A stretch of 62,662 nucleotides of DNA from a virus: positions 1 through 62,662 of the IMG/VR virus record IMGVR_UViG_3300032322_000475; one strand, given 5' to 3'. Numbering within the stretch: the stretch's first letter is position 1; every line of letters starts with the position of its first letter. The notes under the pieces were generated by a model. The model was not told where the DNA came from, did not search any database, and saw nothing but the letters and a program-made list of their open reading frames with translations. This document shows positions 12,433 to 57,450 of this stretch, in pieces. Position numbers and translations under genes: made by a program.

Positions 12433-14082
12433 GGTAAGACATGAGTGATTATCCCGGCAGAATAATGACGCGTGCGCCGGTCATACCGAGCACGACGCAG
12501 GCATCTGGCATCTGGACGCTACAGCAGGCATTACAGGCTATAAAAGCAGGCGTGTGGCCGGGCATATCTACCAACACGGTGGTGCTGTCATTCACGGCTA
12601 CCAACTCGTGGACATGCCCTGACGGTGTGTCGCAGGTGGATTACCTAGTGGTGGCGGGTGGTGCTGGAGGTGGGACGGGATCTCCGGGTACTTACAACGG
12701 TGGCGGTGGCGGAGCAGGCGGATTCAGAACTGGCACATCACTTCCAGTCGTACCAGGAACTACTTATACAGTTACCGTTGGGTCTGGCGGTGCTGTAAAC
12801 ACAAACGGCGGCAATTCGATTTTTTCCACTTTAACAGCTAATGGCGGTGGTTTTGGCGCTGGCACTGGGGCAACTACTGGGCAAGCAGGAGGTTCTGGCG
12901 GTGGCGGCAGAACCAACACTGCTGGAGGTGCAGGAAACACACCGGTTACCACTCCAAGTCAAGGCAACAACGGGGGTGCGGGTGGTGGCACTTATGGCGG
13001 CGGTGGTGGTGGAGCAACAGAAGTTGGCAATGCTTCGGGCAATGGATATGGTGGAAACGGAACGGCTTCAACTTTGTCTGGCACTTCCACTACATACGGC
13101 GGTGGGGGTGGTGGTGCGGTTGACCCTAATGTTGGAATAGGTGGCACTGGTGGTGGCGGCAATGGTGGTAAGGCTGTTCCTCCTGTAATCAACTCAACAG
13201 CGGGCACAGCAAATACTGGCGGCGGCGGTGGTGGTGGCACATCAAGCGCCCCAAGCACGGCAAGTGCAGGCGGCAGCGGCATTGTCATTATTAGATACCT
13301 AGCCCCACAGACAGGCGTGCTGACGTTCCCAGCTTCCGGCTCGTGGACTTGTCCGCCGGGCGTGGTCAGTGTGGATTACCTAGTAGTAGCGGGTGGTGGT
13401 GGCGGTGCGAAAGACTTAGCTAATGGTGTCGGCAGTGGTGCTGGCGGCGCTGGTGGTTATCGGACTGGCACTAACCTGTCTGTTACTGCTGGAACCACAT
13501 ACGCAATCACTGTCGGTGGTGGTGGTGCTACTCAAACAACAAGTAGGACAAGCGGCAACAATGGTAGCGGTTCTACGTTTAGCACTATTACATCTGCGGG
13601 TGGTGGTGGTGGTGGTGCTTATTTAGGCGCTGGTCAAGCTGGCGGCTCTGGCGGCGGTGGCGGTGGTTTTGCAAACCCTGCATCTGTTGGAGGGGCTGGA
13701 AACACGCCCAACACATCTCCAAGCCAAGGCAACAATGGTGGGGCAGGAGGTACTATTCCTAACTCTGGAGGTGGTGGCGGCGGTGGGGCAAACGCAGTTG
13801 GGTCAAGCGCGTCATCTAATGTTGGTGGTAATGGCGGCAATGGTTCTGCTTCTTCAATATCTGGGCAATCTGTTACCTACGCAGGCGGTGGTGGCGGCGG
13901 TGGTCTTGTTGCTGCTGGTGGCACAGGTGGTACAGGAGGCGGTGGTGCGGGTGGTGGTAGCGCAGCAGCGGGTACTGCTGGCACAGCAAACACTGGGGGT
14001 GGCGGCGGAGGCGGCGGCACAAGCGGTGCGGCAGCAGGTGATGGCGGCGCAGGCGGTTCTGGAATTGTCATCCTCAAACTAA
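10939..14082 (+). repeat. four diverged copies of a ~0.7-kb glycine-rich module
   Basis: Each module spans from the WTxPxGV strand to the GSGIVI strand: about 10939-11690, 11725-12420, 12604-13300 and 13339-14082. Order of landmarks is constant: DYLVVAGG, FRTGT or YRTGT, TVG(A/S)GG, PSQGNNGG, TYAGGGGGG or TYGGGGGG, ANTGGGGGG, GSGIVI. DNA is also similar enough for recombination between copies. Confidence 0.75.
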
Positions 14083-14090
14083 ACTCATAA
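12441..14090 (+). CDS. glycine-rich tail protein 2 (two modules)
   Basis: A 549-residue paralogue of the gene at 10804, with the same layout: an adaptor (residues 1-45, different from its partner) plus two glycine-rich modules. Module ends are GGSGIVIIRY and GGSGIVILKLNS, and the NTPxTxPSQGNNGG block occurs once per module. Differences are concentrated in loop segments between glycine runs, as expected for host-range variation. Reverse-strand Pro-rich frames over this region are artefacts of the GGN codons. Confidence 0.65.
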   Translation: MSDYPGRIMTRAPVIPSTTQASGIWTLQQALQAIKAGVWPGISTNTVVLSFTATNSWTCPDGVSQVDYLVVAGGAGGGTGSPGTYNGGGGGAGGFRTGTSLPVVPGTTYTVTVGSGGAVNTNGGNSIFSTLTANGGGFGAGTGATTGQAGGSGGGGRTNTAGGAGNTPVTTPSQGNNGGAGGGTYGGGGGGATEVGNASGNGYGGNGTASTLSGTSTTYGGGGGGAVDPNVGIGGTGGGGNGGKAVPPVINSTAGTANTGGGGGGGTSSAPSTASAGGSGIVIIRYLAPQTGVLTFPASGSWTCPPGVVSVDYLVVAGGGGGAKDLANGVGSGAGGAGGYRTGTNLSVTAGTTYAITVGGGGATQTTSRTSGNNGSGSTFSTITSAGGGGGGAYLGAGQAGGSGGGGGGFANPASVGGAGNTPNTSPSQGNNGGAGGTIPNSGGGGGGGANAVGSSASSNVGGNGGNGSASSISGQSVTYAGGGGGGGLVAAGGTGGTGGGGAGGGSAAAGTAGTANTGGGGGGGGTSGAAAGDGGAGGSGIVILKLNS

Positions 14091-14098
14091 AAGGACTT

Positions 14099-14356
14099 AT
14101 GGACAGCAAAATCTACATGATGGTAGGGATTGATACAGCGATGCACCTGCTACGTCCGGGCGCTCGTTGGGAGATCACCAACAACTTCTTCAGCGTATGG
14201 GATGACCCACGCCCATGCCCGACGATGGAAGAAGTGCATGACACCATGGAAAAGATTAAAGCCTTCGAGGACAGCATCAACACCATCTGGACTGACGAGC
14301 AGATTGCGCAGATCACAGGTCAGCAGCGCGAGTACGACAAGGCGGTGAACGGATGA
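14099..14356 (+). CDS. predicted tail fibre assembly-type small protein
   Basis: An 85-residue protein: MDSKIYMMVGIDTAMHLLRP, then WEITNNFFSVWDDPRPCPTM and a helical end. The WDDPRPxPT block is like the region of tail-fibre assembly and fibre-tip helper proteins (DUF4376-type) in other phages. Directly downstream of the glycine-rich fibres and overlapping the oxygenase gene by four bases. Probably helps fibre folding or attachment; moderate to low certainty. Confidence 0.45.
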   Translation: MDSKIYMMVGIDTAMHLLRPGARWEITNNFFSVWDDPRPCPTMEEVHDTMEKIKAFEDSINTIWTDEQIAQITGQQREYDKAVNG

Positions 14357-14961
14357 ATATCCAGAACCTTTTTCCGCTGCCTATCGGGTTTGCCCGGCTC
14401 GGTCGTGATCTGACCAAGACAGAGCTGGACTTTATTCTCGGCCAAGAGCGCTACGCCAACGAAGGCAACGCCACTAGCGCCGACCGTAAGATATTGGTTG
14501 GCAAAGAGTTGACCGACATCCGCGATTTTATCGAAGACGCGATGTTGGAATACTTTAAGACCGTGCATGATCCTAAAGGTGACGTATCCCTGTACATCAC
14601 TCAGTCGTGGTCAAACTACACAGAGCCGGGACAGTATCACCACAAGCACGCGCACCCGAACAGCTTTATCAGCGGTGTGTTTTACCCGCAGGCTGACAGG
14701 CTGGTAGACAAGATTTACTTTTACAAAAGCGGCTACGAGCGTATCAAGCTACAGCCAGACACATGGAACCACTGGAACTCTGAAAGCTGGTGGTATGAAG
14801 TTGGCGCAGGTGATTTGATTCTATTCCCGTCGCACCTTGAGCACATGGTTCAGACCAAGGTTGGCAACGAGACCAGAGTCAGCATTGCATTTAATACCTT
14901 TCTCAAGGGACACATCGGTGTCGATGAGAGCTTAACTGGACTGCAATTAGGAGAAGAGTAA
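14353..14961 (+). CDS. 2OG-Fe(II) oxygenase
   Basis: A 202-residue protein. QSWSNYTEPGQYHHKHAHPN (residues 84-103) gives the first iron-binding His pair, FPSHLEHMV (158-166) the distal His, and RVSIAFN (175-181) the Arg that holds 2-oxoglutarate; SGVFY lies between. This is the pattern of the putative 2OG-Fe(II) oxygenase family common in marine phages. It would hydroxylate a protein, nucleotide or sugar; the substrate is unknown. Being between fibre and lysis genes, fibre modification is possible. A second, different 2OG oxygenase is at 56905. Confidence 0.75.
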   Translation: MNIQNLFPLPIGFARLGRDLTKTELDFILGQERYANEGNATSADRKILVGKELTDIRDFIEDAMLEYFKTVHDPKGDVSLYITQSWSNYTEPGQYHHKHAHPNSFISGVFYPQADRLVDKIYFYKSGYERIKLQPDTWNHWNSESWWYEVGAGDLILFPSHLEHMVQTKVGNETRVSIAFNTFLKGHIGVDESLTGLQLGEE

Positions 14962-32314: not shown

Positions 32315-32456
32315 TTTTTGGCCTTATTTTTGAGTAGCATTCTTTACACATCCACTGCCGACGCTTACCTACTATTTTGAAGTAGCCCCCTGGCGTGCGC
32401 CTGAAGCTATAGCAGTACACGCACCAGCGATCACTTGAGGAGTTTGTCTGCTGCAA
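32295..32456 (-). CDS. 53-residue zinc-ribbon protein (TTG start)
   Basis: This short frame fills the gap between the sugar reductase and the NrdR-like gene. From TTG 32456, with GGAG 10 bases upstream, it reads 53 residues to TGA at 32295. The product has CVYCYSF (Cys12/15) and CKECYSK (Cys37/40) around GYFKIVGKRRQWM, i.e. C-x2-C, 21 residues, C-x2-C, a clear zinc ribbon. It overlaps the end of the upstream gene by 26 bases and the next start by 20. A GTG start just before the second Tyr is possible but would lose Cys12. Confidence 0.5.
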   Translation of the reverse strand: MQQTNSSSDRWCVYCYSFRRTPGGYFKIVGKRRQWMCKECYSKIRPKNVVPDM

Positions 32457-33342
32457 GATAGATCGTCTCCAAAGAACTTAGCGTCGGTCTATATCCCAGC
32501 GCGTACGCGGCTGTGTTCGTAGAATAATAGTTCTCTTTGATGCCAGTTGCAGGAATGCCTGCCGGGACATTAACAATCTCATACTGCATCCCGTACCGTT
32601 TACTCATACAGTCCAGCAGCATTTGTTTTGTCACCGGCTGACGGCTGTAGCAGTCAATAGCGGTATTGAGATCCTGTCCTAGCAGGACGTTGATCATCTG
32701 GAAGAAGTCGAGTGAGCCGACGTAATCCCGCACGATTGGCGTTCTGTCTGCGCGGAACACGGTGCCTTCCTTCACCGCCCGAATCATGTCGTTGATCATG
32801 AACCGACTGTTCAGGTCAGCGGTGTGGCTGAAGTAATTGTAGATTCGTAGATCCATGATGCAGCCCGGTGTCACGCGGTGGCGCGTCTCTGCGGCTAGCT
32901 TTGCCAGCCCGTAATAGTGGTGCGGCTGGATGTTGTTGATAGGGTAGGTGGCACACTTGTGTGCGTCGGCAGGCGTGTTGAAGTTGTCGCCGAACACAGC
33001 ACCGCTACTGATAAAGATGTACTTGCAGTCGCGGTTCTCGACCAGATAGTCCAGCGCCATCTTGTCGAACGTCTCTGTGATCTGGAAGATATTGCTGCCC
33101 ATCTTCCTGATGCGCTCTGGGTTGCCTGCGCCGACGAAGTTGATGATGACGTCTGCGTTCTTAGCCATGGACGGAAAGTCGAAGTACGTCCGGGAAAAGA
33201 AGTTCTTCAGGTTGTGCTCGACCATCCACCGGCTCATGGCACTAGCGTCGCGGGAGAACAGTTCTAGGAAATGCTCGTCGCTGAAGGACGTAATTAGGTC
33301 ACGGGCAAGGTGGCTACTTGCCCCCATGATGATGATCTTCAC
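32431..33342 (-). CDS. NAD(P)-dependent sugar reductase / epimerase family (YerF-like candidate)
   Basis: A 303-residue extended SDR protein. The N-terminal nucleotide-binding loop is GASSHLARDL (res 7-16). INFVGAGN and FISSGAVFGDN follow, and the active-site pair is YYGLAK (Tyr-x3-Lys). The C-terminal half binds a nucleotide sugar in the family. Downstream of the dehydrase and ThDP enzyme genes, it would reduce the side-chain ketone or a ring ketone of the sugar made by them, as YerF does in yersiniose synthesis. The SDR assignment is firm; the substrate is inferred. Confidence 0.65.
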   Translation of the reverse strand: MKIIIMGASSHLARDLITSFSDEHFLELFSRDASAMSRWMVEHNLKNFFSRTYFDFPSMAKNADVIINFVGAGNPERIRKMGSNIFQITETFDKMALDYLVENRDCKYIFISSGAVFGDNFNTPADAHKCATYPINNIQPHHYYGLAKLAAETRHRVTPGCIMDLRIYNYFSHTADLNSRFMINDMIRAVKEGTVFRADRTPIVRDYVGSLDFFQMINVLLGQDLNTAIDCYSRQPVTKQMLLDCMSKRYGMQYEIVNVPAGIPATGIKENYYSTNTAAYALGYRPTLSSLETIYLAADKLLK

Positions 33343-33350
33343 GTCGCCTC

Positions 33351-35132
33351 CTAGTCCATTAAGTCGATAAACATCAGGTTGCGCAACTCTTCCCTGTCCA
33401 CCAGCGGCACCATATCTTCGAGTGGCCGCGATGACATTGTGCCGTCCGAGCGCATGTACGAACCGATGGTTGGTTCCGTCGGCTTGTGCGGGTCAAGGAT
33501 GACCTCGATGATCTCTGGCTCGTTCGTGGTCAGCACGTTGGCGATCAGAGTTTTGATCTGCACGTTGCTGTGTAGCTTGCGATACCGCAGGCCGTAGCAG
33601 TTGGCAACGTTGGAGAACGACGGGATGTGGACGCCGGTATGCTCGGTAGATCCAACGTATCTACTGTCGAAGTACTTCTCCTGCGTAATCCTGATGGCGT
33701 GATACCCAGCGTTGTTGAACACGAATATCTTGATGGGCAGGTTATGGTGCTTGATGATGGCAAGTTCTTGCAGGTTGAGCTGTATGCCGCCGTCGCCTGT
33801 CACGCAGATGATCTGCTTGCCTGTTGCCATGTGCGCCCCGATAGCTGACGGCAGGCAGGATCCCATCATGGCTAGGTTCTTGGCACCGAACATCCGGGTG
33901 GAATCTTTTATCTTCAGCACCTGATGGCCGATGATGAATGCCTGTCCTGATCCTGTCGGCGTCAGCACGGCGTCATCCGGCAACTGGTCGCCCAGTTCGG
34001 CGTAGAAGTAGTACGGATCCACGTAGTGATCATCACGCACCGCCTGCATGGCAGGTGCAACAGGGAACCTGTCCTTGACCTTCTGGCAGTAGTCCAGCCA
34101 ATTCTTGTTGGCTCGTACCAGCCCTTGTTTCAGCAGTTCTTCTATCAGCTTCTTGGCGCAGACTCGTGAGTGCCTGCCGACATTCAGCCCCGGCTTGTTT
34201 GCCTCTGCTGGGTCAAGGTCAATCATGTCAACGAATGCCTGCCGGGCAAAGGTCTCAATGTTGTGGCTTGTATGCTGCACACCCAGTCGCGCCCCGATAG
34301 ACAGGATGTAGTCGGCGTTCTGGATGATGATGTTGGGGTAGCGTGGTCCGAACGAATTAGATCGCCCGAAGTAGTTGGGATAGCTGTCCGGGATCAGGTC
34401 TACTGCACCCCAAGTTGTCTGCACCGGGACGTTGAACTTCTGGGCTAACTGTCTAGCGGCATCCTTGCCACCGCTGGTGTAGGTGCCGTTGCCAAAGAGG
34501 ATCAGCGGACGAGCGGCTGTATGCAGCTTGTGCATGATGGACTGCACCAGCTCTGGTGTCGGTGCGGCGTTGGAACTAAAGCCGGTGAAACCTTCCTGCA
34601 AATCATGGCTGATGTCAGCGCACTGCACGTCCAGCGGGATGTCCAGCCAGACAGGTCCGGGGCGTCCGTCGTTGGCGATGAAGACGGCCTTCTCTAGTTC
34701 TCGCCTGACATCCTGTGGGGAGCTGATGAACTTGGCGTACTTGGTGATGGGTTTCACCACCTCGACGATATCCAGTTCTTGGAAGCCCCTGATACGCAAG
34801 TTCAGTCCGTGTGCCGAGAAGGTCTGGGTGATGTTGCCGGAGATGATCAGCATGGGTACGCTGTCTGCAAACGCTGACGCCACGGCGGTGATGGCATTCG
34901 TGCCGCCGGGACCAGAGGTGACAAACAGGACGCCCGTCGAGTTGACCGTCCTGCCGTAAGCGTAGGCTGCGAATCCACAGGACTGCTCGTGGTGCAGGTG
35001 CATGTACTTCAGGCCATCCGTTTTGCCCACGCTGTCCAGCAGGTGCATCATGCCTCCGCCGGACAGTAGGAATACGGTGTCCGTCCCTGTTAGCTCCTTG
35101 ATCCTCGAGCAGATGTAGTCAGAAGCCTTCAT
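33351..35132 (-). CDS. ThDP-dependent carboligase / acetolactate synthase-like (YerE-like candidate)
   Basis: A 593-residue enzyme. ATG 35132 is chosen because it overlaps the upstream stop (ATGA); an upstream in-frame start would only extend into the dehydrase gene. The N-terminal domain has LHHEQSCGFAAYAYGR with catalytic Glu49. The C-terminal ThDP motif is TGDGG (446-449) with NN at 473-474. Such enzymes join a two-carbon unit from pyruvate to an acceptor. Next to an E1-type dehydrase it is best explained as YerE-like, adding acetaldehyde to C4 of a 3,6-dideoxy-4-ketohexose. Ordinary acetolactate synthase is less likely. Confidence 0.7.
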   Translation of the reverse strand: MKASDYICSRIKELTGTDTVFLLSGGGMMHLLDSVGKTDGLKYMHLHHEQSCGFAAYAYGRTVNSTGVLFVTSGPGGTNAITAVASAFADSVPMLIISGNITQTFSAHGLNLRIRGFQELDIVEVVKPITKYAKFISSPQDVRRELEKAVFIANDGRPGPVWLDIPLDVQCADISHDLQEGFTGFSSNAAPTPELVQSIMHKLHTAARPLILFGNGTYTSGGKDAARQLAQKFNVPVQTTWGAVDLIPDSYPNYFGRSNSFGPRYPNIIIQNADYILSIGARLGVQHTSHNIETFARQAFVDMIDLDPAEANKPGLNVGRHSRVCAKKLIEELLKQGLVRANKNWLDYCQKVKDRFPVAPAMQAVRDDHYVDPYYFYAELGDQLPDDAVLTPTGSGQAFIIGHQVLKIKDSTRMFGAKNLAMMGSCLPSAIGAHMATGKQIICVTGDGGIQLNLQELAIIKHHNLPIKIFVFNNAGYHAIRITQEKYFDSRYVGSTEHTGVHIPSFSNVANCYGLRYRKLHSNVQIKTLIANVLTTNEPEIIEVILDPHKPTEPTIGSYMRSDGTMSSRPLEDMVPLVDREELRNLMFIDLMD

Positions 35133-36361
35133 CCGTTTTCCTTTATAAACTCGTCGATGGTGTCGCAGACATAGGCCAGCATCTCCTCTGTCAGTGCAGG
35201 CTGTACGCCCAGCCAGAACGTGTTGTTCATCACGTAGTCCGTGTTCTCCAGCGTGCCGTGGACGCGGTAGTTCTGTCCCTGCAAGAACGGCTGCTTGGTC
35301 GCGTTGCCAGCAAACAGCAGGCGGCATCCGATCTGACGGCTCTCAAGGAACTGGGTCAGCGCATCTCGCGTGAACTTGGCAGTCGGCGATATCGTGATGG
35401 GAAACCCGAACCAACTAGGCGACGCATCCGGGTAGACGGTTGGGAACCAGAACTGATCGTAGGCATCCAGCCGCTGCCGCAGGTATCCGTAGTTGCTCTT
35501 GCGGGTAGAGATGAACTGGTACAGCTTCTCAAGCTGTGCCACGCCGCAGGCAGCCTGCATCTCGGTGATCCGCAGGTTGTAGCCCAGATGGGTGTAGACG
35601 TACTTGTGATCGTAGCCGTAGGGCAGTTCGCCAAACTGTTGATCGAACCGGCGCTTGCAGGTGTTGTTCTTACCTGGTTCGCACCAGCAGTCCCTGCCCC
35701 AGTCGCGGAAGGACTCGACCAGTCGGGACAGCTTGGTGTTGTTGATGATGACCGCCCCGCCTTCTCCCGTGGTGATGTGGTGCGCCGGGAAGAAAGACAG
35801 GGTGGCAAGATCACCAAACGTGCCGACGTTCTGATGACGCCAGCGGGCACCTAGCGCGTCGCAGCAGTCCTCGATAACCCACAGACCGTACCTGTCTGCC
35901 ACATCCATGATGGCATCCACGTTGAACGGATTGCCCAGCGTGTGCGCGATCATGATGGCTTTGGTCTTGCTGGTGATGGCTTGCTCCAGCGTACGGGTGT
36001 CGATGTTCAGGGTGCTGTTGACATCCAAGAACACCGGCACCGCACCGAACTGAATGATCGGCGCGATGGTGGTGGGAAAGCCGCAGGCAACGCTGATCAC
36101 CTCATCGCCCTTCTGGATTGCCCGCTTGCCTAGCGACGGGCTAGTCAGGGCAGAGAAGGCCAGCAGGTTGGCAGAGCTGCCAGAGCTGGTAGTCCTCACG
36201 GCCTTGCAGCCTAAGAACTTGGTCAGCCCTTCTTCCAGTTGCCGGTTGAATGCACCTGCCGTCAACCAGCCACGGTCGACAGCTTCGTGCATCAGCTCCT
36301 TCTCGCGGTCGCCTACCACCTGCCCGGAGGCAGGGATATAAGTCTGTCCGGCTGTAAACAT
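35129..36361 (-). CDS. rfbH: CDP-4-dehydro-6-deoxyglucose 3-dehydrase, E1 / RfbH-like
   Basis: A 410-residue DegT/DnrJ-fold enzyme. The usual PLP lysine is replaced by His194 in FFPAHHITTGEGG, the hallmark of C3-dehydrases. It also keeps the [2Fe-2S] ligand spacing C-x57-C-x-C-x7-C: Cys167, Cys225, Cys227 and Cys235 (RDCWCEPGKNNTC). Thus it looks like the iron-sulfur E1 enzyme (RfbH/AscC) and not the cluster-free ColD type. It removes the C3 hydroxyl, making a 3,6-dideoxy-4-ketohexose with a reductase partner (E3). That partner is not visible in the window. GAGG precedes ATG. Confidence 0.85.
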   Translation of the reverse strand: MFTAGQTYIPASGQVVGDREKELMHEAVDRGWLTAGAFNRQLEEGLTKFLGCKAVRTTSSGSSANLLAFSALTSPSLGKRAIQKGDEVISVACGFPTTIAPIIQFGAVPVFLDVNSTLNIDTRTLEQAITSKTKAIMIAHTLGNPFNVDAIMDVADRYGLWVIEDCCDALGARWRHQNVGTFGDLATLSFFPAHHITTGEGGAVIINNTKLSRLVESFRDWGRDCWCEPGKNNTCKRRFDQQFGELPYGYDHKYVYTHLGYNLRITEMQAACGVAQLEKLYQFISTRKSNYGYLRQRLDAYDQFWFPTVYPDASPSWFGFPITISPTAKFTRDALTQFLESRQIGCRLLFAGNATKQPFLQGQNYRVHGTLENTDYVMNNTFWLGVQPALTEEMLAYVCDTIDEFIKENG

Positions 36362-37126
36362 TTACACCTCTTGTGGTTTAGGAGCCTGTGGCTTCTCTGT
36401 CAGGATGCCGTCGAACTTGTGGGTGCCGATGTGTGCAAGTTGCGCCCACGGTGCTGCCCAGACTGTGCCGCCGCAATGGTCGCGCCAGATTTTGCAGAAG
36501 TGGTAGTCCTCGGATAGCAGGCGTTCGCCCATCGGCTCAATGCTGGTGGCAAAGAACTCATGGATACGCTCGTTGCCCATGTTGCCGCCAAGATCGTTGG
36601 TGTCGTTGACATAGGTGGGTACGTGTTCCTTGAGCTGCTCGAAGACCTCGCGCTTGATCATCATGAAGCCCGTGCCACCGTTCCAAATCTCTACCGGCTT
36701 GTCCAGTTCTACGCGCTGCTCGTTCTGGTAGTTGACGAGATTGACCACGAACGAACCGCTGTACTTGCGCAGATCCTGTGGAGGTACGCCTGCCAGCGCG
36801 GCTGCATGGACGTTCGACCAGTTGATTTCCTTCTTGGGATAGATGCCGCAGATGATCGGCTTGTCAGACAGCAGCATGGGCAGCACGTCCTTGGGATCGA
36901 AGTGGATGTCCGCATCAATGAACATCATGTGCGTGAAGTCTGTCTTCAGGAAGCCATGGACTAGCGCGTTGCGGGCGCGTTGGATGAGCGACTCGTTGAA
37001 CAGAAAGCTGCACGCCATGTCTACGCGGTTCTCGCGCAGCATGTTTTGCAAGGTCATGATTGACTGTGCAAAGTAGCCAAAGCACTGGCCGCCGTACATC
37101 GGGGTCGCCACAAAAAGTTTTGCCAT
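36362..37126 (-). CDS. GT-A type glycosyltransferase, paralogue of 39241-40011
   Basis: A 254-residue protein. ATPMYGG at the start, MMFIDADIHF with Asp71-Ala-Asp73 (metal/nucleotide-sugar DxD), CGIYPKK, GGTGFMMI and LLSEDYHFC define a GT-A family seen in phages and bacteria. The other gene in this arm (39241) has the same motifs in the same order. It sits directly upstream of the dehydrase gene: its last codons and TAA supply the E1 ribosome site. Probably adds the cassette's sugar to a surface or virion glycan. Confidence 0.7.
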   Translation of the reverse strand: MAKLFVATPMYGGQCFGYFAQSIMTLQNMLRENRVDMACSFLFNESLIQRARNALVHGFLKTDFTHMMFIDADIHFDPKDVLPMLLSDKPIICGIYPKKEINWSNVHAAALAGVPPQDLRKYSGSFVVNLVNYQNEQRVELDKPVEIWNGGTGFMMIKREVFEQLKEHVPTYVNDTNDLGGNMGNERIHEFFATSIEPMGERLLSEDYHFCKIWRDHCGGTVWAAPWAQLAHIGTHKFDGILTEKPQAPKPQEV

Positions 37127-37135
37127 TCCATTCTC

Positions 37136-37849
37136 CTAGAAGTTAAAGATCTGCTTTTTTGTCCATTCAAAGCCTGGACGATGCTGTGCCATCCACTCGT
37201 TGTTGCCGAGGAATTTCTCTTTGGTCATGCCACCGCTGCCGTCGCTAGACAGGCGGTAGCTGACACTGTGTTTGCCGGTAGTGCCGCACTTGATCTTGGC
37301 CTGCATCAGCGCAGCTTGGAACGAGCGGTCAGATACGATGGGCACGTACCACGCATGGCTGTGCTGGCGGGCGTGTTCTGTACGCACGGCGTAACATGAG
37401 TTGTCCACCAAGTAATGCCCGTGTGAGTTCCGATGGCAGCCGAGAGACTCGCAGTTGTCCTCGCAGACTGGGTTGCCGTCGTTGTCCACGATCTTGCGCA
37501 GGCTGTACGCCCAGCCAAGTTCATGCTGCTCCATCAGGTTGACGATGGATTCGATATGGTCAGGGTCATAGAAGTTGTCGTCGTCGAGGTAGAAGATCAG
37601 GTCTTCACCGACCAAGTAAGGAGCAGCAGCGTAAACAGGAGCCATAGCATAACCCCCGCCCCCGTTGGCAACTGGAAGATAAACAACATCAACGTCACTG
37701 CCCGCTGTAGCTGCCGCCGTAGCGTCCCAACAATCTTTACCGTGTGCGAAGACATAGTGTCTAGCCTTTATGGTTTGCGCCTTCACGCTGTCTATAGCCT
37801 GCCGGATCGTCTCGCGGCCTCGTGTGCTAGTGACTACGGCGATGTTCAT
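37136..37849 (-). CDS. glycosyltransferase family 2-like
   Basis: A 237-residue protein: MNIAVVTSTRGRETIRQAID at the N-terminus and FYLDDDNFYDP with Asp89-Asp90-Asp91 (DxD). A Cys/His-rich middle (CEDNCESLGCHRNSHGH) is unusual and might bind a metal. WVPIVSDRSF then helices follow. No membrane segment is seen. It overlaps the GT10-type gene by four bases and continues the leftward glycan cassette. A GT2-like fold is likely; donor and acceptor are unknown. Confidence 0.65.
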   Translation of the reverse strand: MNIAVVTSTRGRETIRQAIDSVKAQTIKARHYVFAHGKDCWDATAAATAGSDVDVVYLPVANGGGGYAMAPVYAAAPYLVGEDLIFYLDDDNFYDPDHIESIVNLMEQHELGWAYSLRKIVDNDGNPVCEDNCESLGCHRNSHGHYLVDNSCYAVRTEHARQHSHAWYVPIVSDRSFQAALMQAKIKCGTTGKHSVSYRLSSDGSGGMTKEKFLGNNEWMAQHRPGFEWTKKQIFNF

Positions 37850-38796
37850 CTGTTCCTCTCTATCAGTCGGTACAGTTGTTTGACTTCATGCTCGTTGCTA
37901 AATTGATTAGCCTTGTCTGACAGGATGAATCCGTCGATGGCCTCGAGGTATTCGGCATAGCGGGCGTAGTCCATGTTGGTGAGGTAGCCGTGTAAATCTT
38001 GCCAGCCACCAAACTCCCGCATGTCAATGAAGCACTCGGGCGGGATGTGGTCGGTGACGTTGGGCGCACCCCAGTACACCGGCACGATGCCTGCCATGAA
38101 GGCGTCTAGGATCTTCTCGCTGATATAGCCGACGGCGTTGTCGCAGTTCTCGAACGTCAGGGCGAACCGGTAGTTGCTGTACGTCTTCAGCTTGTTCTCT
38201 GTCTTGCCCTTGTAGCAGTGGAAGTTTTTGATATTCCACCCGTAGCCGTGCAGGTCAAACTGGAACATGTCGTTCTGCTGGAACCAGAGGATGGCTTCAA
38301 TCCGCTTGGTGTACAGGCTGCCGGGGAACTGCATGTTCTTGGCCGACTGAATGATGGTCAGCAGCTTGCGGGCGCGGAAATCTTCCTCCGTCATGTGGCA
38401 ACGTTGCCGGGCTTCCCAGTCCACGGTGAAGTTGTGCTTCTCGTAGATGCCCTTGCCTGCAAGCTCGTCGTTCCATGTCAGCACTTGGGAGAATTGGTCA
38501 TGGTAGGCGGGATCCCAGTTGTCCGGCAGGATGGCTGGCGGCTCGTACAGCACCAGTGCTTTGCGGGCGTTGCCGATGTCCGGCTCGACACGCGGGCGGT
38601 CCATGTAGATTACGAAGTCCAGTTCTCGTGGATCCACCTGGTCAAGTGTGTACAGGTCGATACCGGTCAGCTTGCACATGTTGTGCAGCTCCATCCACGG
38701 ACGCAGCAGGTTGTGGCCTACGTCACTGTTCTCGTTCTTGAATAGGTATCCGTCGCGGGTGATGAACTCATAATGATTATGGATGCCTACCTTCAT
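37846..38796 (-). CDS. glycosyltransferase family 10 (fucosyltransferase-like)
   Basis: A 316-residue protein. The C-terminal signature YISEKILDAFMAGIVPVYWG (res 224-243) followed by PECFIDMREF, and YRFALTFEN (209-217), match the GDP-fucose-binding part of family 10 alpha-1,3/4-fucosyltransferases. The N-terminal half (HNHYEFITRDG, YMDRPRVEP) is the variable acceptor domain. It would transfer a 6-deoxy sugar, fucose or a related sugar. It lies upstream of the dideoxysugar genes and is translationally coupled (ATGA) to both neighbours. Confidence 0.75.
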   Translation of the reverse strand: MKVGIHNHYEFITRDGYLFKNENSDVGHNLLRPWMELHNMCKLTGIDLYTLDQVDPRELDFVIYMDRPRVEPDIGNARKALVLYEPPAILPDNWDPAYHDQFSQVLTWNDELAGKGIYEKHNFTVDWEARQRCHMTEEDFRARKLLTIIQSAKNMQFPGSLYTKRIEAILWFQQNDMFQFDLHGYGWNIKNFHCYKGKTENKLKTYSNYRFALTFENCDNAVGYISEKILDAFMAGIVPVYWGAPNVTDHIPPECFIDMREFGGWQDLHGYLTNMDYARYAEYLEAIDGFILSDKANQFSNEHEVKQLYRLIERNR

Positions 38797-38993
38797 TCTT
38801 CTCCCCTTCTGATTGCTTCTGCGGCCTGCGTGTATCCCAGATCCTCACAAAGCGCGGCGCAGCGTTCCCGTTCTGTCAGCGTGACCATCTTCGAGAACTT
38901 CCGCATCCACGCCATAGCGGCAGCGTCCGGCGCGTAGATCAGGTCTTCACCCTCTGCGGCTTCGTTTGCCATCTGAAATAACCTTCGGCTCAT
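38793..38993 (-). CDS. 66-residue phage protein, unknown
   Basis: A small protein: MSRRLFQMANEAAEGED, then a helical end with RERCAALCEDLGYTQAAEAI. The (E)RERCAALCE motif is common in small phage proteins of unknown role. It couples by ATGA overlaps to the membrane protein upstream and the fucosyltransferase-like gene downstream. No further function can be read from the sequence. Confidence 0.5.
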   Translation of the reverse strand: MSRRLFQMANEAAEGEDLIYAPDAAAMAWMRKFSKMVTLTERERCAALCEDLGYTQAAEAIRRGEE

Positions 38994-39232
38994 CCAAACA
39001 ACAGGTGAAACAACTCGCGCAGGACGGCAACGACGAGGGCGAGTCCCACGTACATCAGAATCATGATTGCGCCAACGTCAAACGAGGAGATGTTCTTGCG
39101 GTAGAACGCTTCCCATTTGTTCTCGCTTTCTATCGCGCCGCTTCTTTCCTGCACCGTCTGGTAGAACTGCGGCACATAGTGGCTGCCAATTTTTGGCGGT
39201 GGCTCCTTGATGAACTGTCCATCTCGTAACAT
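38990..39232 (-). CDS. 80-residue C-tail-anchored membrane protein
   Basis: A small protein with a polar N-terminal part (FIKEPPPKIGSHYVPQFYQT) and one strong hydrophobic segment near the end (AIMILMYVGLALVVAVL, res ~55-71), then LFHLLFG. It sits between two glycosyltransferase genes; it could anchor one of them at the inner membrane. That is inference. No known family recognised. Confidence 0.5.
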   Translation of the reverse strand: MLRDGQFIKEPPPKIGSHYVPQFYQTVQERSGAIESENKWEAFYRKNISSFDVGAIMILMYVGLALVVAVLRELFHLLFG

Positions 39233-39240
39233 GTTTCCTC

Positions 39241-40011
39241 CTAAGTGTTATTTCTTCCAGCCCGCATGAGATCACCCGCGAAGACATGCTGTCCTACGTG
39301 GCGTAGCTCAATAGTGGGATCGGCGTATATTCTGCCACTCTCTTTTTTCCACAGCTCACAGAAGTGATAGTCCTCTGACAACAGCAGTCCTAGCTCTGTG
39401 ATGCTGGTGCCGAAGAACTCGCGGGTGAGCGGTGCAAGGAACTGGCCGTTCGCTGGGTTGGTGATCAGGCTGGTGCGGTAGGTAGGCACCTTGAATCGCA
39501 GCGCCTTGAACACGCTTCTGTGGATCAGCATGAACCCTGTGCCGCCGTGCATAACTTCTATCAGGCCGTCTGGTCCAAGCGGTACTTTGTCTGGATCACC
39601 CTGATCGTCCACGGCGTTCAGCACATACGAGCAGCCGAACTTGTCGATGTCCTGCTCTCCCCGCAACGCTGCCTGCCGGATGCGATCCCAGAACAGAAAC
39701 TTCTTGGGATAGATACCGCACACCATCTCTTTGTTGTGCTGGAGTAGTTTGTAGATTCCGTCTGTCGGGAACCAGATATCGGCGTCAACAAACATCAGGT
39801 AATCGTCTTGGGTTTCATCCAAGAAATACCGAGCGATCTCGTTGCGGGCGCGAGTGATCAGCGCCTCTTTGTTCATGAACTGCCAGCGTGTCTTGATGCC
39901 CTTGCTCTCAAGGAAGCTGACGTTGCGCAGCATACTGTCTACGTATTCCATGAACATGGCACCGCCGTAAGCAGGCGTGCCAATCATGATGGTGGGCTTG
40001 CCGTCGATCAT
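39241..40011 (-). CDS. GT-A type glycosyltransferase, paralogue of 36362-37126
   Basis: A 256-residue protein: GTPAYGG (res 11-17), FVDADIWF with Asp76-Ala-Asp78, CGIYPKK, GGTGFMLIHRS, LLLSEDYHFC and HVGQHVF. All motifs are shared in order with 36362-37126. The pair arose by duplication, and each may handle a different sugar of one glycan. First gene of the glycan cassette, following the recombination genes with a four-base overlap. Confidence 0.7.
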   Translation of the reverse strand: MIDGKPTIMIGTPAYGGAMFMEYVDSMLRNVSFLESKGIKTRWQFMNKEALITRARNEIARYFLDETQDDYLMFVDADIWFPTDGIYKLLQHNKEMVCGIYPKKFLFWDRIRQAALRGEQDIDKFGCSYVLNAVDDQGDPDKVPLGPDGLIEVMHGGTGFMLIHRSVFKALRFKVPTYRTSLITNPANGQFLAPLTREFFGTSITELGLLLSEDYHFCELWKKESGRIYADPTIELRHVGQHVFAGDLMRAGRNNT

Positions 40012-40265
40012 GGCGCATTCCTTTCGCGGCCTTCAATAAATTCCTTTACATGCCCCAGCGCGTAGTCGTAGCCATCAGAAAACATAGCGTTGCGATATTG
40101 TTCAGCGCCTGTTAGTTCATTCACTGTTTCAAGTATTGCTTTGTGCTCTGCTGCTGCGACTAGCTTGGCGAAGCGTTCAATCTCTGGCATGAAGTCACGG
40201 AATATTCCCCAGTCATCGCCGCCAGCTTCCCGCGCCATGCGGATGATGTCATCTCTGTTCATCAA
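40008..40265 (-). CDS. small conserved phage protein (MNRDDIIRMAREAG family)
   Basis: An 85-residue protein beginning MMNRDDIIRMAREAGGDDW, with IERFAKLVAAAEHKAI in the middle. The start block is very common in small phage proteins of uncertain function. It is placed between the RHH-type gene and the first glycosyltransferase, overlapping both. Helical and soluble. Confidence 0.55.
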   Translation of the reverse strand: MMNRDDIIRMAREAGGDDWGIFRDFMPEIERFAKLVAAAEHKAILETVNELTGAEQYRNAMFSDGYDYALGHVKEFIEGRERNAP

Positions 40266-48041: not shown

Positions 48042-49520
48042 ATGATGGGACTAAATCTCCGCTCTTATCAAGAGCAGACGTTAGAAGCTTTACGCCAAGG
48101 ATTTGCACAGGGTAAGCGAGCGCAGATTCTTTATGCTCCGACGGGCGCAGGCAAAACAGAGATGGCAATCGAGCTGATGCGAGCGACGAAAGCCAAGGGC
48201 AACAAAGCAGCCATGCTACTTGATCGTGTTGTCCTCTGTGATCAAACATCCAAGCGGCTAGAAAAATACAGCATCGACCACGGCGTGATGCAGGCTGGTC
48301 ATTGGCGCTATCGGCCATACGAAAACATCCAAGTGTGTTCCGCGCAGACGCTTGAGCGCCGCGGCTCGTTTCCTGGTTTGAATCTGCTGATCGTGGATGA
48401 AGCGCACCAGACACGCGAACAGACGATGGAGTTCATCAAGAACAATCCAGAGATCAGAGTTATCGGGTTGACTGCCACGCCGTTTACGAAAGGCTTGGGT
48501 AAGGTGTATGACAACGTGGTCAGCACCGTTACCACCAAGCAGCTAGTCGACGAGAAGATTCTTGTACCGCTGCGTGTGTTTATCGCAAAAGAAATTGATA
48601 TGTCTGGCGCGAAGAAGGTAGCGGGCGAGTGGAGTCAGGCCGAGGCATCCGAGCGCGGCATGAAGATCACCGGTGATGTTGTTTCAGAATGGATTGCGAA
48701 GACCTATCAGATCTTTGGCAAGCCGGTGAAGACTATCGTGTTTGCTTCGGGTGTAGACCACGGCACACACTTGGCACGCAAGTTTCAGGCAGAGGGTCAT
48801 AACTTTATCTGCATCAGTTATCGGGATGATGACGAGTGGAAGAAGCAGGTCATCGAGGACTTCAGCAAGCCAGACACCAAGATCACCGGCTTAATAGCAA
48901 CGGACATCTTGACCAAGGGATTTGATGTGCCTGATGTGCTGATCGGTGTGTCGGCGCGGCCATTCTCGAAGAGCCTGTCATCCCACATCCAACAGATGGG
49001 CAGGGTCATGCGCGGCTGCGAGGGCAAGGAATTTGCAGTATGGCTGGACCATGGCGGCAACTACCTGCGGTTCCGCGAGGATTGGGATGAAGTATTCGAA
49101 CAGGGTGTCGACCAGCTAGACGAGGGCAAAGAGAAAGCCAAGCGCGAACCTACAGACAAGATCAAAGAAGCAAGCAAGTGCCCGAAGTGCAGCGCGTTGT
49201 GGCCGTCTAACAGTGACACCTGCTACAACTGCGGCCATGTGCGGGAGCGCAAGAACAAAGTAGTCGCCGTCCAGGGTGAGATGGTGGAGCTGACAGGCAC
49301 GGCATCCAAGGAAAACAAGCAGGCGTTCTGGAACCAGATGCAGTACTTGATCCGGTATGAAAACTGGAGCAAGGGCAGAGCTGCGCACACATACAAGGAC
49401 CGTTTCGGTGTCTGGCCGCGGGGTTTGATCGACAACCATCCGCAAGAACCATCAATGGACACGCGCAAATTTGTGAACAAGAAGCTTAAAGCTTTTCTTC
49501 GATCAATCGGGAGAGGGTAA
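48042..49520 (+). CDS. SF2 DNA helicase with C-terminal zinc ribbon
   Basis: A 492-residue protein. Walker A is APTGAGKT (32-39), motif II DEAH (119-122), motif III GLTATPF, motif VI QQMGRVMRG. After the second RecA domain there is CPKCSALW ... CYNCGHV (~376-395), a zinc ribbon. Architecture is like phage DEAD/DEAH helicases used in replication or branch migration. Ribosome site AAGGGGAA precedes ATG. Shares one base with the next gene. Confidence 0.85.
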   Translation: MMGLNLRSYQEQTLEALRQGFAQGKRAQILYAPTGAGKTEMAIELMRATKAKGNKAAMLLDRVVLCDQTSKRLEKYSIDHGVMQAGHWRYRPYENIQVCSAQTLERRGSFPGLNLLIVDEAHQTREQTMEFIKNNPEIRVIGLTATPFTKGLGKVYDNVVSTVTTKQLVDEKILVPLRVFIAKEIDMSGAKKVAGEWSQAEASERGMKITGDVVSEWIAKTYQIFGKPVKTIVFASGVDHGTHLARKFQAEGHNFICISYRDDDEWKKQVIEDFSKPDTKITGLIATDILTKGFDVPDVLIGVSARPFSKSLSSHIQQMGRVMRGCEGKEFAVWLDHGGNYLRFREDWDEVFEQGVDQLDEGKEKAKREPTDKIKEASKCPKCSALWPSNSDTCYNCGHVRERKNKVVAVQGEMVELTGTASKENKQAFWNQMQYLIRYENWSKGRAAHTYKDRFGVWPRGLIDNHPQEPSMDTRKFVNKKLKAFLRSIGRG

Positions 49521-50353
49521 TGCGGGATCCATTTATTATCGACGAGCCAACCTGCATCTCATTCTCTGGAGGTAGGACTAGTGCGTACCTGCTGTGGCGC
49601 GTGCTGCAATCCAACGGTGGCTTGCCTGATCAGGCCATTGTTTGCTTCGCAAATACAGGCAAGGAGGAGGAAGCTACGCTCGAGTTTGTGCGTGACTGCG
49701 GGGTCAACTGGGGCGTCAAGATCCATTGGCTTGAGTATCAAGATGCAGAGAAAACCAAGGACAGATTCAAGGTGGTTGACTTTGAAACAGCTAGCCGTAA
49801 CGGGGAACCGTTTGAGCAGCTAATCATCAAGAAAAAATATCTGCCAAACCCAGTTACTAGATTCTGCACCATTGAATTAAAGATCCGGACTATCCACAGG
49901 TATCTAAAATCAATTGGCTGGAGTGACCACAACGAAACGCAGGACTGGATGGGTATCCGTGCGGATGAAATGCGTAGAGCTGCGAAAGTAGATCGGAGCA
50001 GGGTTCCCCTAGTAACCGCGGGCATCACGGCGGCAGACGTTGGGCGGTTCTGGAAAGAACATTCATTCGATCTAAGGTTGTCCAACATTGGCGGCAAGAC
50101 CCTGCATGGTAACTGTGACCTATGCTTTTTAAAGGGTGGCAACATCATCTTAAGCTTGATTGCGGAGAAGCCAGACCGCGCAGTGTGGTGGGCAAAGATG
50201 GAAACTATGGTGCAGTCAAGCAAGCTTGCAACGGGTGACGGTAGCAGGTTTCGAAACGACAGGCCATCCTACGCAGCGATGGCAAAGTTTACAGACGAAC
50301 AGGCCACGCTCTTCACCGATGAAGAGTCTATCGCTTGTTTTTGTGGAGACTGA
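49520..50353 (+). CDS. PAPS-reductase / adenine nucleotide alpha hydrolase-like protein
   Basis: A 277-residue protein. PP-loop SFSGGRTSAY (res 14-23), ANTGKEEEATLEFVRD, FCTIELKIRTIHRYLKSIG and MGIRADE are typical of the phage branch of PAPS reductase / DndC-like proteins. Cys pairs in HGNCDLCFLKGG and a final CFCGD suggest an iron-sulfur site. Possible roles include DNA sulfur modification, nucleotide activation or sulfur metabolism. Surrounded by methylase, helicase and primase genes. Confidence 0.75.
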   Translation: MRDPFIIDEPTCISFSGGRTSAYLLWRVLQSNGGLPDQAIVCFANTGKEEEATLEFVRDCGVNWGVKIHWLEYQDAEKTKDRFKVVDFETASRNGEPFEQLIIKKKYLPNPVTRFCTIELKIRTIHRYLKSIGWSDHNETQDWMGIRADEMRRAAKVDRSRVPLVTAGITAADVGRFWKEHSFDLRLSNIGGKTLHGNCDLCFLKGGNIILSLIAEKPDRAVWWAKMETMVQSSKLATGDGSRFRNDRPSYAAMAKFTDEQATLFTDEESIACFCGD

Positions 50354-55233: not shown

Positions 55234-55436
55234 ATAGAGACGAGCAGTTGTTGTTGGAGGCGTTCCAGATGCTCTACCAGGTGTATAAGGAGCAAAAGGC
55301 TGGCCGGAAATATTTTCGGCCGGTGAGTATTTATCCTGTATTGGCGAAGATACAGAAGCGGTTGGATAAGCCTGTGCGGCAGGAGGCGATGTCGATAGTG
55401 GCGATGCGAGAGAAGGCGAACTGTCCGTGGACTTGA
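55230..55436 (+). CDS. 68-residue protein before the large terminase
   Basis: Small soluble protein MNRDEQLLLEAFQMLYQVYK, EQKAGRKYFRPVSIYPVLAK, mostly helical. Four-base overlap with the LexA-like gene and ten-base overlap with the terminase start. Same unusual G-rich codon use. Function unknown. Confidence 0.5.
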   Translation: MNRDEQLLLEAFQMLYQVYKEQKAGRKYFRPVSIYPVLAKIQKRLDKPVRQEAMSIVAMREKANCPWT

Positions 55437-56902
55437 GTGAGTTGATAGGCAAGTTGCCTGCGGCGGAGCAGGAGAAACTGCTGGAGCAGGTGGGGCAGTA
55501 TCGAGATGCGCTCGTGCGGGAGAAGGCGCAGCAGTCGTTCATGGCATTTGTGAAAGAGATGTGGCCGGGGTTTATACATGGCCGACATCATGCGTTGATG
55601 GCTAAGAAGTTTGAAGAGATCGCGCAGGGGAAGTTGAAGCGGCTGATCATCAACATGCCGCCGCGACATACGAAAAGTGAGTTTGCCTCTTACCTGTTGC
55701 CTGCGTGGTTCTTGGGTAAGAACCCACAGAAGAAGGTCATCCAGACGTCGAACACGGCCGAACTGGCGGTGGGGTTTGGTCGGAAGGTCAGGAACCTGGT
55801 GGATAGCGAGCAGTACGGGAAAATCTTCCCGAATGTTGGACTGCGAGTGGATTCGAAAGCGGCTGGCCGGTGGGCGACGAGCCACGGCGGGGACTACTTT
55901 GCAATTGGTGTCGGCGGTACCGTCACTGGTAAGGGCGCGGATCTACTGATTATTGATGACCCGCACTCGGAACAAGAGGCGAGACTAGCGCAAGGCGATC
56001 CGACGGTCTTTGATTCTGTGTATGAATGGTACACGTCAGGTCCACGGCAACGTTTACAGCCGGGCGGGGCGATTATTGTGGTGATGACGCGCTGGTCAGA
56101 CAAGGATTTGACCGGGCGAGTGCTGAAATCTGACTCAACAGAGTGGGAAGTGATTGAGTTACCGGCCATTTTGCCGTCGGGAAATAGCCTCTGGCCTGAG
56201 TTCTGGTCGCTAGACGAGCTGTTGGCGCTGAAAGAAGAGCTTCCTGTCTACAAATGGAACGCTCAGTACCAGCAAAAGCCCACGGGTGAAGAGGGTGCGC
56301 TGGTAAAAAGGGACTGGTGGCAGCTATACGAAGGGGATAGAGCGCCGCCGTGCGAGTTCATCATCCAAAGTTGGGACACTGCGTACACAAAAAACCAGCG
56401 GAGTGACTATTCTGCGTGTACGACATGGGGCGTCTTTCACAAAGACGAGGATGAAAACGATGTGAACATCATTTTGCTGGACGCTTGGAAGGGAAAGGTG
56501 GAGTTTCCTGACTTAAAAGCGAAGGCAAAGGAGCTGTATGACGAGTGGGAGCCGGATTCCTGCATTATTGAAGCAAAAGCGGCGGGGGCACCGCTGATAT
56601 TTGAGCTAAGACGGATGGGTGTGATGGTTTCTGACTTCACGCCGACCCGTGGCAACGATAAGTTCGTGCGTTTGAACAGCGTTACAGACCTATTTTCTTC
56701 CGGTAAAGTGTGGGCACCAGATACCCGGTGGGCGTCGGAGGTGATCGAGGAGTTTGCGAGGTTCCCGAACGCCGAACACGATGACTTAGTGGACTCCGGG
56801 GTACAGGCATTGATGAGATTTCGACAGGGCGGCTTCCTGCGTCTGGGTTCGGACGAGGAAGATGAGCCTATGGGCTTGCAGCGCAAGCGGGTTTACTACT
56901 AA
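55427..56902 (+). CDS. terL: terminase large subunit
   Basis: GTG 55427 gives 491 residues. ATPase: MPPRHTKSE (Walker A-like, res 77-85), LLIIDDPHSE (Walker B, 173-182), MTRWSDKD (coupling motif, 220-227). Nuclease: SWDTAY (Asp317), IIEAKAAG (Glu382) and HDDLVD (451-456). It cuts concatemers and pumps DNA through the portal. The PPRHTKS form and WSDKD block are like terminases of headful or direct-repeat podo- and siphoviruses, so the end type cannot be told from motifs alone. Confidence 0.92.
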   Translation: MDLSELIGKLPAAEQEKLLEQVGQYRDALVREKAQQSFMAFVKEMWPGFIHGRHHALMAKKFEEIAQGKLKRLIINMPPRHTKSEFASYLLPAWFLGKNPQKKVIQTSNTAELAVGFGRKVRNLVDSEQYGKIFPNVGLRVDSKAAGRWATSHGGDYFAIGVGGTVTGKGADLLIIDDPHSEQEARLAQGDPTVFDSVYEWYTSGPRQRLQPGGAIIVVMTRWSDKDLTGRVLKSDSTEWEVIELPAILPSGNSLWPEFWSLDELLALKEELPVYKWNAQYQQKPTGEEGALVKRDWWQLYEGDRAPPCEFIIQSWDTAYTKNQRSDYSACTTWGVFHKDEDENDVNIILLDAWKGKVEFPDLKAKAKELYDEWEPDSCIIEAKAAGAPLIFELRRMGVMVSDFTPTRGNDKFVRLNSVTDLFSSGKVWAPDTRWASEVIEEFARFPNAEHDDLVDSGVQALMRFRQGGFLRLGSDEEDEPMGLQRKRVYY

Positions 56903-56904
56903 AC

Positions 56905-57450
56905 ATGACGAACATTTTGGTCATGAAGCAATTGCCGCCGGAAGTAGTCGATCTGGCGAACCAAGAATTGGATTTGCTTGATGTATATGACGGCGAAGTA
57001 TTCAGAGAAGGCAAGCCGGTAGCCAATTACAAGTACCGCAACAGCAGTTTGCGCTGGGCTGAGTATGGGCATTGGTTTAGCGGGGTGTTGTACCAGTTTG
57101 GCGTGATTGCCAACGAAAACTGGGGCTTTAATATTGACGGGCACCAAGCGATGCAGGTGGCGGATTACACGAAGGGGCAGCATTTTGACTGGCATCCCGA
57201 CCTGATTCCGTTTTCAGGGCCGACAGACAGAAAAGTAAGCGTGGTGTGTTTGATGAGCGACCCGGCTGACTATGAAGGCGGGGAGTTCAAGATACGAGAT
57301 TATCGGGAAGAGACGCAGGTACACGCAGTGCCACTACAAAAGGGAACGGTTATAGCTTTCCCGTCCGCGGTGTGGCATACGGTAACCCCTGTAGTTAGCG
57401 GCGTTCGACGCTCAACAACTTTGTGGCTAACAGGCCCATGTTTTAGATAG
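56905..57450 (+). CDS. 2OG-Fe(II) oxygenase (PKHD-type hydroxylase-like)
   Basis: A 181-residue protein. YTKGQHFDWHPD (His97, Asp99), EGGEFKI, and VWHTVTPVVSGVRRSTTLWL with His158 and Arg168 give the full H-x-D...H plus 2-oxoglutarate Arg set of prolyl-4-hydroxylase-like enzymes. Such genes are common in marine phages. Lying between large terminase and portal is unusual; it might hydroxylate a head protein or act on DNA or tRNA. Substrate unknown. Confidence 0.8.
   Translation: MTNILVMKQLPPEVVDLANQELDLLDVYDGEVFREGKPVANYKYRNSSLRWAEYGHWFSGVLYQFGVIANENWGFNIDGHQAMQVADYTKGQHFDWHPDLIPFSGPTDRKVSVVCLMSDPADYEGGEFKIRDYREETQVHAVPLQKGTVIAFPSAVWHTVTPVVSGVRRSTTLWLTGPCFR

Follow-up and report, generated by a model that had tools for sequence, protein, structure and literature searches.

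The window analysed here is IMG/VR virus record IMGVR_UViG_3300032322_000475 at its full length (62,662 bases), and it carries on its minus strand three consecutive genes that read in the order E1-type 3-dehydrase, thiamine diphosphate (ThDP) enzyme, and short-chain dehydrogenase/reductase (SDR; Table 1). As the first-pass annotation had described, the three are coupled: the ATG of the ThDP gene overlaps the E1 stop codon as ATGA, and 8 bp separate the ThDP stop codon from the SDR start. The record is that of a freshwater-type virus of bacteria, and since it also encodes a terminase, a portal, a DNA ejection protein, tail-fibre-assembly-like proteins, a helicase, and an exonuclease, it can be recognised as a genuine phage, podovirus-like and of lytic type. 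The closest named relatives of its large terminase subunit (TerL) belong to the Pelagibacter phages HTVC027P/023P, phage 023Pt_psg01, and phage DSL-LC04 (52-58%).

Table 1. Position and assignment of the sugar cluster and of two phage marker genes in the window.
Feature	Position	Strand	Length	Basis
Extended SDR, probably an NAD(P)H-dependent reductase acting on the acyl branch	32431..33342	-	303 aa	Pfam Epimerase, model, neighbours
YerE-like ThDP-dependent carboligase	33351..35132	-	593 aa	JanthE best match, tree, AU test
E1-type (RfbH) CDP-4-keto-6-deoxyhexose 3-dehydrase	35129..36361	-	410 aa	RfbH score, PDB matches, Cys spacing
Glycosyltransferase-like (phrog_1574), DxD motif DADIHF	36362..37126	-	254 aa	phrog_1574 1e-44
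GT2 family glycosyltransferase	37136..37849	-	237 aa	Pfam PF00535 3.6e-7
GT10 (fucosyltransferase-type) glycosyltransferase	37846..38796	-	316 aa	Pfam PF00852 4.1e-16
Small cluster protein	38990..39232	-	80 aa	No Pfam/PHROG match; kept in syntenic relatives
Second phrog_1574 glycosyltransferase-like	39241..40011	-	256 aa	phrog_1574 4.7e-31; GT2 3.6e-4
Terminase large subunit	55427-56902
Portal	57459-59924

Relatives of the phage carry the cluster as well, and where dS could be estimated, the dN/dS values between the window and these relatives were low, at 0.09-0.18 in E1, 0.10-0.12 in the carboligase gene, and 0.12-0.31 in the SDR gene. All three genes are intact and, by these ratios, under purifying selection, working rather than decaying. 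Chance cannot account for the trio: its genes are long and uninterrupted, two of them (those of E1 and the ThDP enzyme) match their families over the full length, all three recur in independent contigs, and dN/dS is low. Two near-complete-sized relatives with TerL 87-88% identical to that of the window are devoid of E1 and the ThDP gene, one of them also of every glycosyltransferase of the set, while the other has a reduced set; the sugar cluster is thus an accessory, variable locus.

Elsewhere in the window, two tandem paralogous neighbours of 542 and 549 aa (phrog_2295, positions 10804-14090) are tail-fibre-assembly-like, and an auxiliary gene at 49520-50353 resembles phosphoadenosine phosphosulfate reductase (phrog_424). 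Furthermore, 2 genes for 2OG-Fe(II) oxygenases were found, one beside the tail genes (14353-14961) and one between terminase and portal (56905-57450).

Assignment of the three enzymes

The E1 protein scored 636.2 bits against the NCBIfam model for RfbH (curated cut-off 423), and among PDB entries it is closest to two E1 structures, 3bcx and 3bb8 (E about 1e-155). His194, which had been read from the sequence as the replacement of the pyridoxal phosphate (PLP)-binding lysine, indeed occupies that position and aligns with the wild-type His of 3bcx, the same column being Lys in 3bb8. The proposed iron-sulfur ligands are likewise exact, with Cys167, Cys225, Cys227, and Cys235 in the spacing C-x57-C-x-C-x7-C. 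The enzyme is predicted to 3-dehydrate CDP-4-keto-6-deoxyglucose together with an E3-type partner.

The mechanically called open reading frame of the ThDP gene (658 aa from 35327) is over-extended, and translation almost certainly begins at position 35132, with the ATG that overlaps the E1 stop codon, which yields the 593-aa protein. In this protein, the catalytic Glu49 and the GDG...NN motif claimed at the outset were located, with GDG at residues 446-448 and NN at 473-474. The best PDB match is 8rph (JanthE, 370 bits), followed by 5ahk, which we take to be PpYerE (245 bits), and then by acetolactate synthases at about 200 bits. JanthE, from Janthinobacterium sp. HH01, is the closest solved relative and is a YerE-like, ketone-accepting enzyme (PMC12188165); structures of both PpYerE and JanthE exist (PMC12247030). 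In a quick tree of 61 rows, in which many within-clade placements are weakly supported, the phage enzyme falls into the JanthE clade, with Escherichia coli IlvB and IlvI beyond a branch of 100% SH-aLRT support; 5ahk lies outside the JanthE clade, yet on the same side of the split from acetolactate synthases (AHAS). Forcing the phage enzyme together with IlvB/IlvI was rejected by the AU test (p 2.6e-4), which places it apart from the anabolic acetolactate synthases, with which the first-pass annotation had not expected it to cluster. The top NCBIfam match is the acetolactate synthase large subunit, at 327.5 bits and thus under the cut-off of 538.

The phage protein is thus YerE-like, with a putative aldehyde-ketone cross-coupling activity on a 4-ketosugar. 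It differs from JanthE in having GDG in place of CDG, and the acceptor-pocket residues Y268, P293, Y297, and K567 of JanthE are replaced by F, Q, H, and T, respectively. With identities of no more than 33% to JanthE and 41% to its best bacterial homolog, the phage enzyme may also differ in donor and acceptor. The Arg of the AHAS acceptor site (RFDDR) is Gln in the phage enzyme; this residue was dropped as a discriminator between AHAS and YerE, as the bacterial E1-linked homologs and 5ahk retain the Arg. Among the INPHARED phages, there was neither a DNA match to the sugar cluster nor a YerE-like match above 30% identity; the matches obtained were ordinary acetolactate-type genes, many of them in records resembling bacterial DNA deposited as phage.

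The SDR starts with GTG and was found only weakly by sequence searches (Pfam Epimerase, 1.7e-7), with no match among PDB sequences. Its structural model (pLDDT 90) has the extended SDR fold proposed for the third gene, with the corresponding Ser-Tyr-Lys residues conserved as SSG (S112/S113) and Y144-x3-K148. The best fold match is the Campylobacter jejuni NADP-dependent reductase of CDP-glucitol synthesis (TM 0.84), although extended SDRs differ little in this respect. The protein belongs to an SDR family of its own, phage- and YerE-linked, and close cellular homologs directly adjoin YerE-like genes in an Altiarchaeales contig (L087) and in an Elusimicrobia contig that also encodes E1 (L152), which supports a role after the carboligase. 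It is therefore probable that the SDR reduces the side-chain ketone of the acyl branch, as a candidate YerF-type enzyme; alternatively, it could be an epimerase. In one relative (L019:12956-13948), a 330-aa protein with no Pfam match takes the place of the SDR downstream of E1 and a split YerE-like pair.

YerE-like genes are linked to 3-dehydrases in viruses and bacteria

A scan for viral YerE-like genes that made no reference to E1 yielded 78 loci, which are contigs, some near-identical, rather than independent lineages. Of these loci, 70 also encode a homolog of the His-type 3-dehydrase, always on the same strand, and 60 of the 70 linked dehydrases have all four iron-sulfur cysteines, while the other 10 are without some or all of them. 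Terminase_6N was recognised in only 13 of 50 other viral contigs tested, for which reason these loci are described as viral and not all as belonging to phages, and a search for NCLDV capsid genes in other viral contigs, run without a positive control, found none. Six contigs with a YerE-like gene (L190:4183-5325 and, similarly, L167, L169, L176, L193, and L205) encode dehydrase homologs that have the active-site His and are without the iron-sulfur cysteines; by sequence, these are nearest to E1, then to ColD.

The same association is seen in bacteria, where the nearest relatives of the ThDP enzyme lie in rfbF-rfbG-rfbH clusters. Within 8 kb of the best 80 bacterial ThDP homologs (at most 41% identity), rfbF was found for 51, rfbG for 47, and a DegT/E1 homolog for 48, with His and all four Cys present in 38 of these 48.

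Related phages exchange the carboligase

The position between E1 and the SDR was compared across 24 related contigs including the window, of which a few (L012, L044) are fragmentary or poorly assembled and L019 lacks the SDR. While the surroundings are largely conserved, the ThDP gene differs. A single-chain YerE-like enzyme (79-87% identical) is present in 6 contigs including the window, whereas 14 contigs have a YerE-like enzyme in two pieces of about 340 + 243 aa, which shares about 28-35% identity with that of the window. The remaining 4 (L018, L006, L010, and L017) carry a split transketolase of about 253-286 + 283 aa that matches Pfam Transketolase_N and Transket_pyr and has a split-chain transketolase component as its top PDB match. 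In each of the 24 core contigs E1 is followed by a ThDP enzyme, so that exchange has refilled the slot and not emptied it. The AU test rejected a sister relationship of the whole-chain and split YerE-like enzymes (p 2e-10).

The exchange is most clearly seen between the window and L018, the DNA of which is 96.9% identical from position 40012 to 35139, within the last codons of E1. After 35139 the similarity breaks, and it resumes at 33341, the start of the SDR; between these points, L018 has its transketolase genes. In the E1 tree, the slot type changes at least 5 times, and well-supported pairs of mixed type include the window (YerE-like) with L018 (transketolase) as well as L020 with L006. 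Assembly chimeras are an unlikely cause, because every slot type is found in several contigs in an unchanged gene order.

A further variant occurs in a viral contig (L028:9995-13138), in which E1 is followed by a PDH-E1-alpha-like protein of 192 aa, an E1-beta-like protein of 172 aa, and then an SDR; in this unchanged gene order, the pair may be a minimal carboligase of the alphaKADH2 type. The YerE-like, transketolase, and PDH-E1-like slot types thus correspond to the three ThDP superfamilies (DC, TK, and alphaKADH2) for which ketosugar branching is known or has been proposed (PMC12247030).

Several contigs depart from these arrangements. An additional gene for a 172-aa protein lies between E1 and the split carboligase in L011 (11227-11745). 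The YerE-like enzyme is distributed over three open reading frames (PYR, middle, and PP) in L045 (7404-9012) and L046, consists of PYR and PP without the middle domain in L043 (9154-10190), and is split at other domain borders in the viral contigs L056, L053, L024, and L032, in each case next to or near E1.

Glycosyltransferases and precursor supply

Upstream of E1 and on the same strand, the cluster continues with two phrog_1574 glycosyltransferase-like genes, one GT2 gene, and one GT10 gene. The phrog_1574 protein adjoining E1 has a weakly GT-A-like fold and is 99% identical in amino acid sequence in L018. Four relatives (G002, G003, G004, and G006) contain an additional NDP-sugar epimerase/dehydratase-like gene of 332-361 aa between GT10 and GT2, so other sugars of the glycan may vary too.

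Searches of the window and of 17 related records turned up neither rfbF nor an E3-type NAD-binding domain; rfbG was likewise not found in related records of the lineage, and none was recognised among the window genes scanned. This agrees with the initial expectation that the precursor enzymes and the E3 reductase are absent, and it implies that the host must supply CDP-4-keto-6-deoxyglucose as well as electrons; host supply of this sugar nucleotide is assumed in what follows. Outside the lineage of the window, two viral contigs (G021, G022) encode rfbF and rfbG together with E1. In a simple hydropathy scan of the whole window, no protein had more than 2 predicted membrane segments; with no polytopic membrane protein, the window encodes no flippase, O-antigen ligase, or Gtr-type set.

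A candidate branched-sugar pathway and its alternatives

We consider it probable that the trio, encoded by the phage, extends the CDP-3,6-dideoxyhexose pathway by a branch that makes C-branched 3,6-dideoxysugars. This supports the branched-dideoxysugar reading of the first-pass annotation, with pyruvate as a candidate donor and yersiniose as a candidate product; the upstream glycosyltransferase genes and the exchange of the carboligase among relatives had escaped that annotation. Gene identities, catalytic residues, gene order, purifying selection, and the linkage to 3-dehydrases across viruses and bacteria are read from sequence, and each reaction step, along with the donor, stereochemistry, nucleotide, and glycan target, is predicted. 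During infection, the host would provide CDP-4-keto-6-deoxy-D-glucose and a reductase for the iron-sulfur centre of E1, and the phage E1 would remove the C3 oxygen together with this reductase, giving CDP-4-keto-3,6-dideoxyglucose. The ThDP enzyme would then decarboxylate pyruvate or a longer alpha-keto acid and transfer the acyl unit to the C4 ketone, which would become a tertiary alcohol, and the SDR would reduce the new side-chain ketone. The first of these steps follow the established RfbH/E1 and YerE-type pathways. The resulting CDP-branched octose (or longer sugar) would be passed on to the phage glycosyltransferases of the same cluster. The most likely target would be a virion protein, modified in the cytoplasm, and a change of host surface glycans is less likely; the former is preferred, the cluster being cytosolic and equipped with glycosyltransferases of its own, as in chloroviruses.

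The same chemistry could instead deliver the sugar into host lipopolysaccharide or capsule, leading to receptor change or superinfection exclusion, a use that we regard as possible, though doubtful. In line with it, the known YerE-type sugars in a recent review are those of bacterial surface polysaccharides (PMC12247030), the CDP-sugar precursor must already be made by the host, and phage glycosyltransferases could still act on lipid-linked O-units of the host in the cytoplasm. Against it stand the lack of a polytopic membrane protein in the window, hence of a flippase, ligase, or Gtr-type set, and the nature of the phage, which is lytic-type and has glycosyltransferases of its own.

That the sugar is attached to bases of the phage DNA, as a hypermodification against restriction, appears improbable. 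Phage-encoded sugar synthesis combined with soluble glycosyltransferases is known from DNA glycosylation, and the window contains a DNA methyltransferase-like gene; however, neither a dCMP hydroxymethylase nor another base-hydroxylating enzyme was recognised among the genes scanned, both 2OG-oxygenases match general families, and four glycosyltransferase-like genes rather suggest an oligosaccharide. We hold it similarly improbable that E1 and the SDR make an ordinary unbranched 3,6-dideoxyhexose while the ThDP enzyme has a different substrate. By itself, E1 opens the routes to abequose, paratose, tyvelose, and ascarylose, and 17 of 64 viral E1 loci lack a recognised ThDP gene on the contig DNA examined, but this reading is opposed by the constant presence and refilling of the carboligase slot in the core contigs and by the SDR family, which adjoins YerE-like genes in bacteria and archaea as well. 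Finally, an ordinary acetolactate synthase, an auxiliary gene of branched-chain amino acid synthesis beside E1 by chance, would account for the best NCBIfam match and for the classification of ilvB-type genes under amino-acid metabolism in viral auxiliary gene lists (PMC8226683), but is very improbable given the score far below the cut-off, the rejected IlvB/IlvI grouping, the ATGA junction with E1, the 3-dehydrase linkage of the viral homologs, and the transketolase-type replacement in relatives, which an acetolactate role does not predict.

Relation to known systems and implications

The predicted sequence of steps in the branched-sugar pathway proposed here (3-dehydrase, ThDP carboligase acting on the C4 ketone, and side-chain reductase) has the same order as in the yersiniose A pathway of Yersinia pseudotuberculosis O:6. 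In contrast to the latter, the trio is phage-borne and not accompanied by rfbF, rfbG, or E3, its SDR belongs to a distinct subfamily known mainly from these phages, and its carboligase is exchanged among relatives. The transketolase cassette has a counterpart in the split transketolases of miharamycin and amipurimycin synthesis, for which two genes and a C2 addition to a keto sugar have been proposed (PMC12247030); those enzymes are described only from Streptomyces, whereas the equally split phage cassette adjoins an E1 dehydrase. As for the target, parts of one account of chlorovirus PBCV-1 (PMC5408694) describe virus-encoded nucleotide-sugar enzymes and glycosyltransferases and a cytoplasmic glycosylation of the capsid; PBCV-1 is, however, a eukaryotic virus, and these parts refer to fucose and rhamnose and to no branched deoxysugar pathway.

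Genes for rfbH, rfbG, ilvB-type enzymes, and transketolases have been catalogued separately as viral auxiliary genes (PMC8226683; PMC11295528; PMC5454428), and in the open-licence literature searched, we found no description of a viral branched-sugar pathway. The type of pathway is an established one; new, as far as we searched, are its occurrence in a phage and the replacement of one carboligase class by another. A 2025 review of ketone-accepting ThDP enzymes considered viruses unexplored and the branching of keto sugars by transketolases unproven (PMC12247030). The phage locus bears on both gaps, as a viral YerE-like pathway and as a natural swap of a YerE-like enzyme and a transketolase within a near-identical cluster.

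Whether phages swap unrelated ThDP enzymes as a cassette, such that near-identical phages bear differently branched glycans, is in our estimation evenly balanced. If they do, enzyme swapping would be a source of structural variation in viral glycans, and split transketolases would indeed add branches to keto sugars, an activity yet to be proven for any organism. The exchange of carboligases between close relatives suggests that these viruses diversify their own sugar coats. Moreover, viral ilvB and transketolase genes, regarded as auxiliary genes of amino-acid and pentose-phosphate metabolism, respectively, may sometimes belong to glycan synthesis, and the locus suggests that phage particles or infected hosts carry rare branched sugars.
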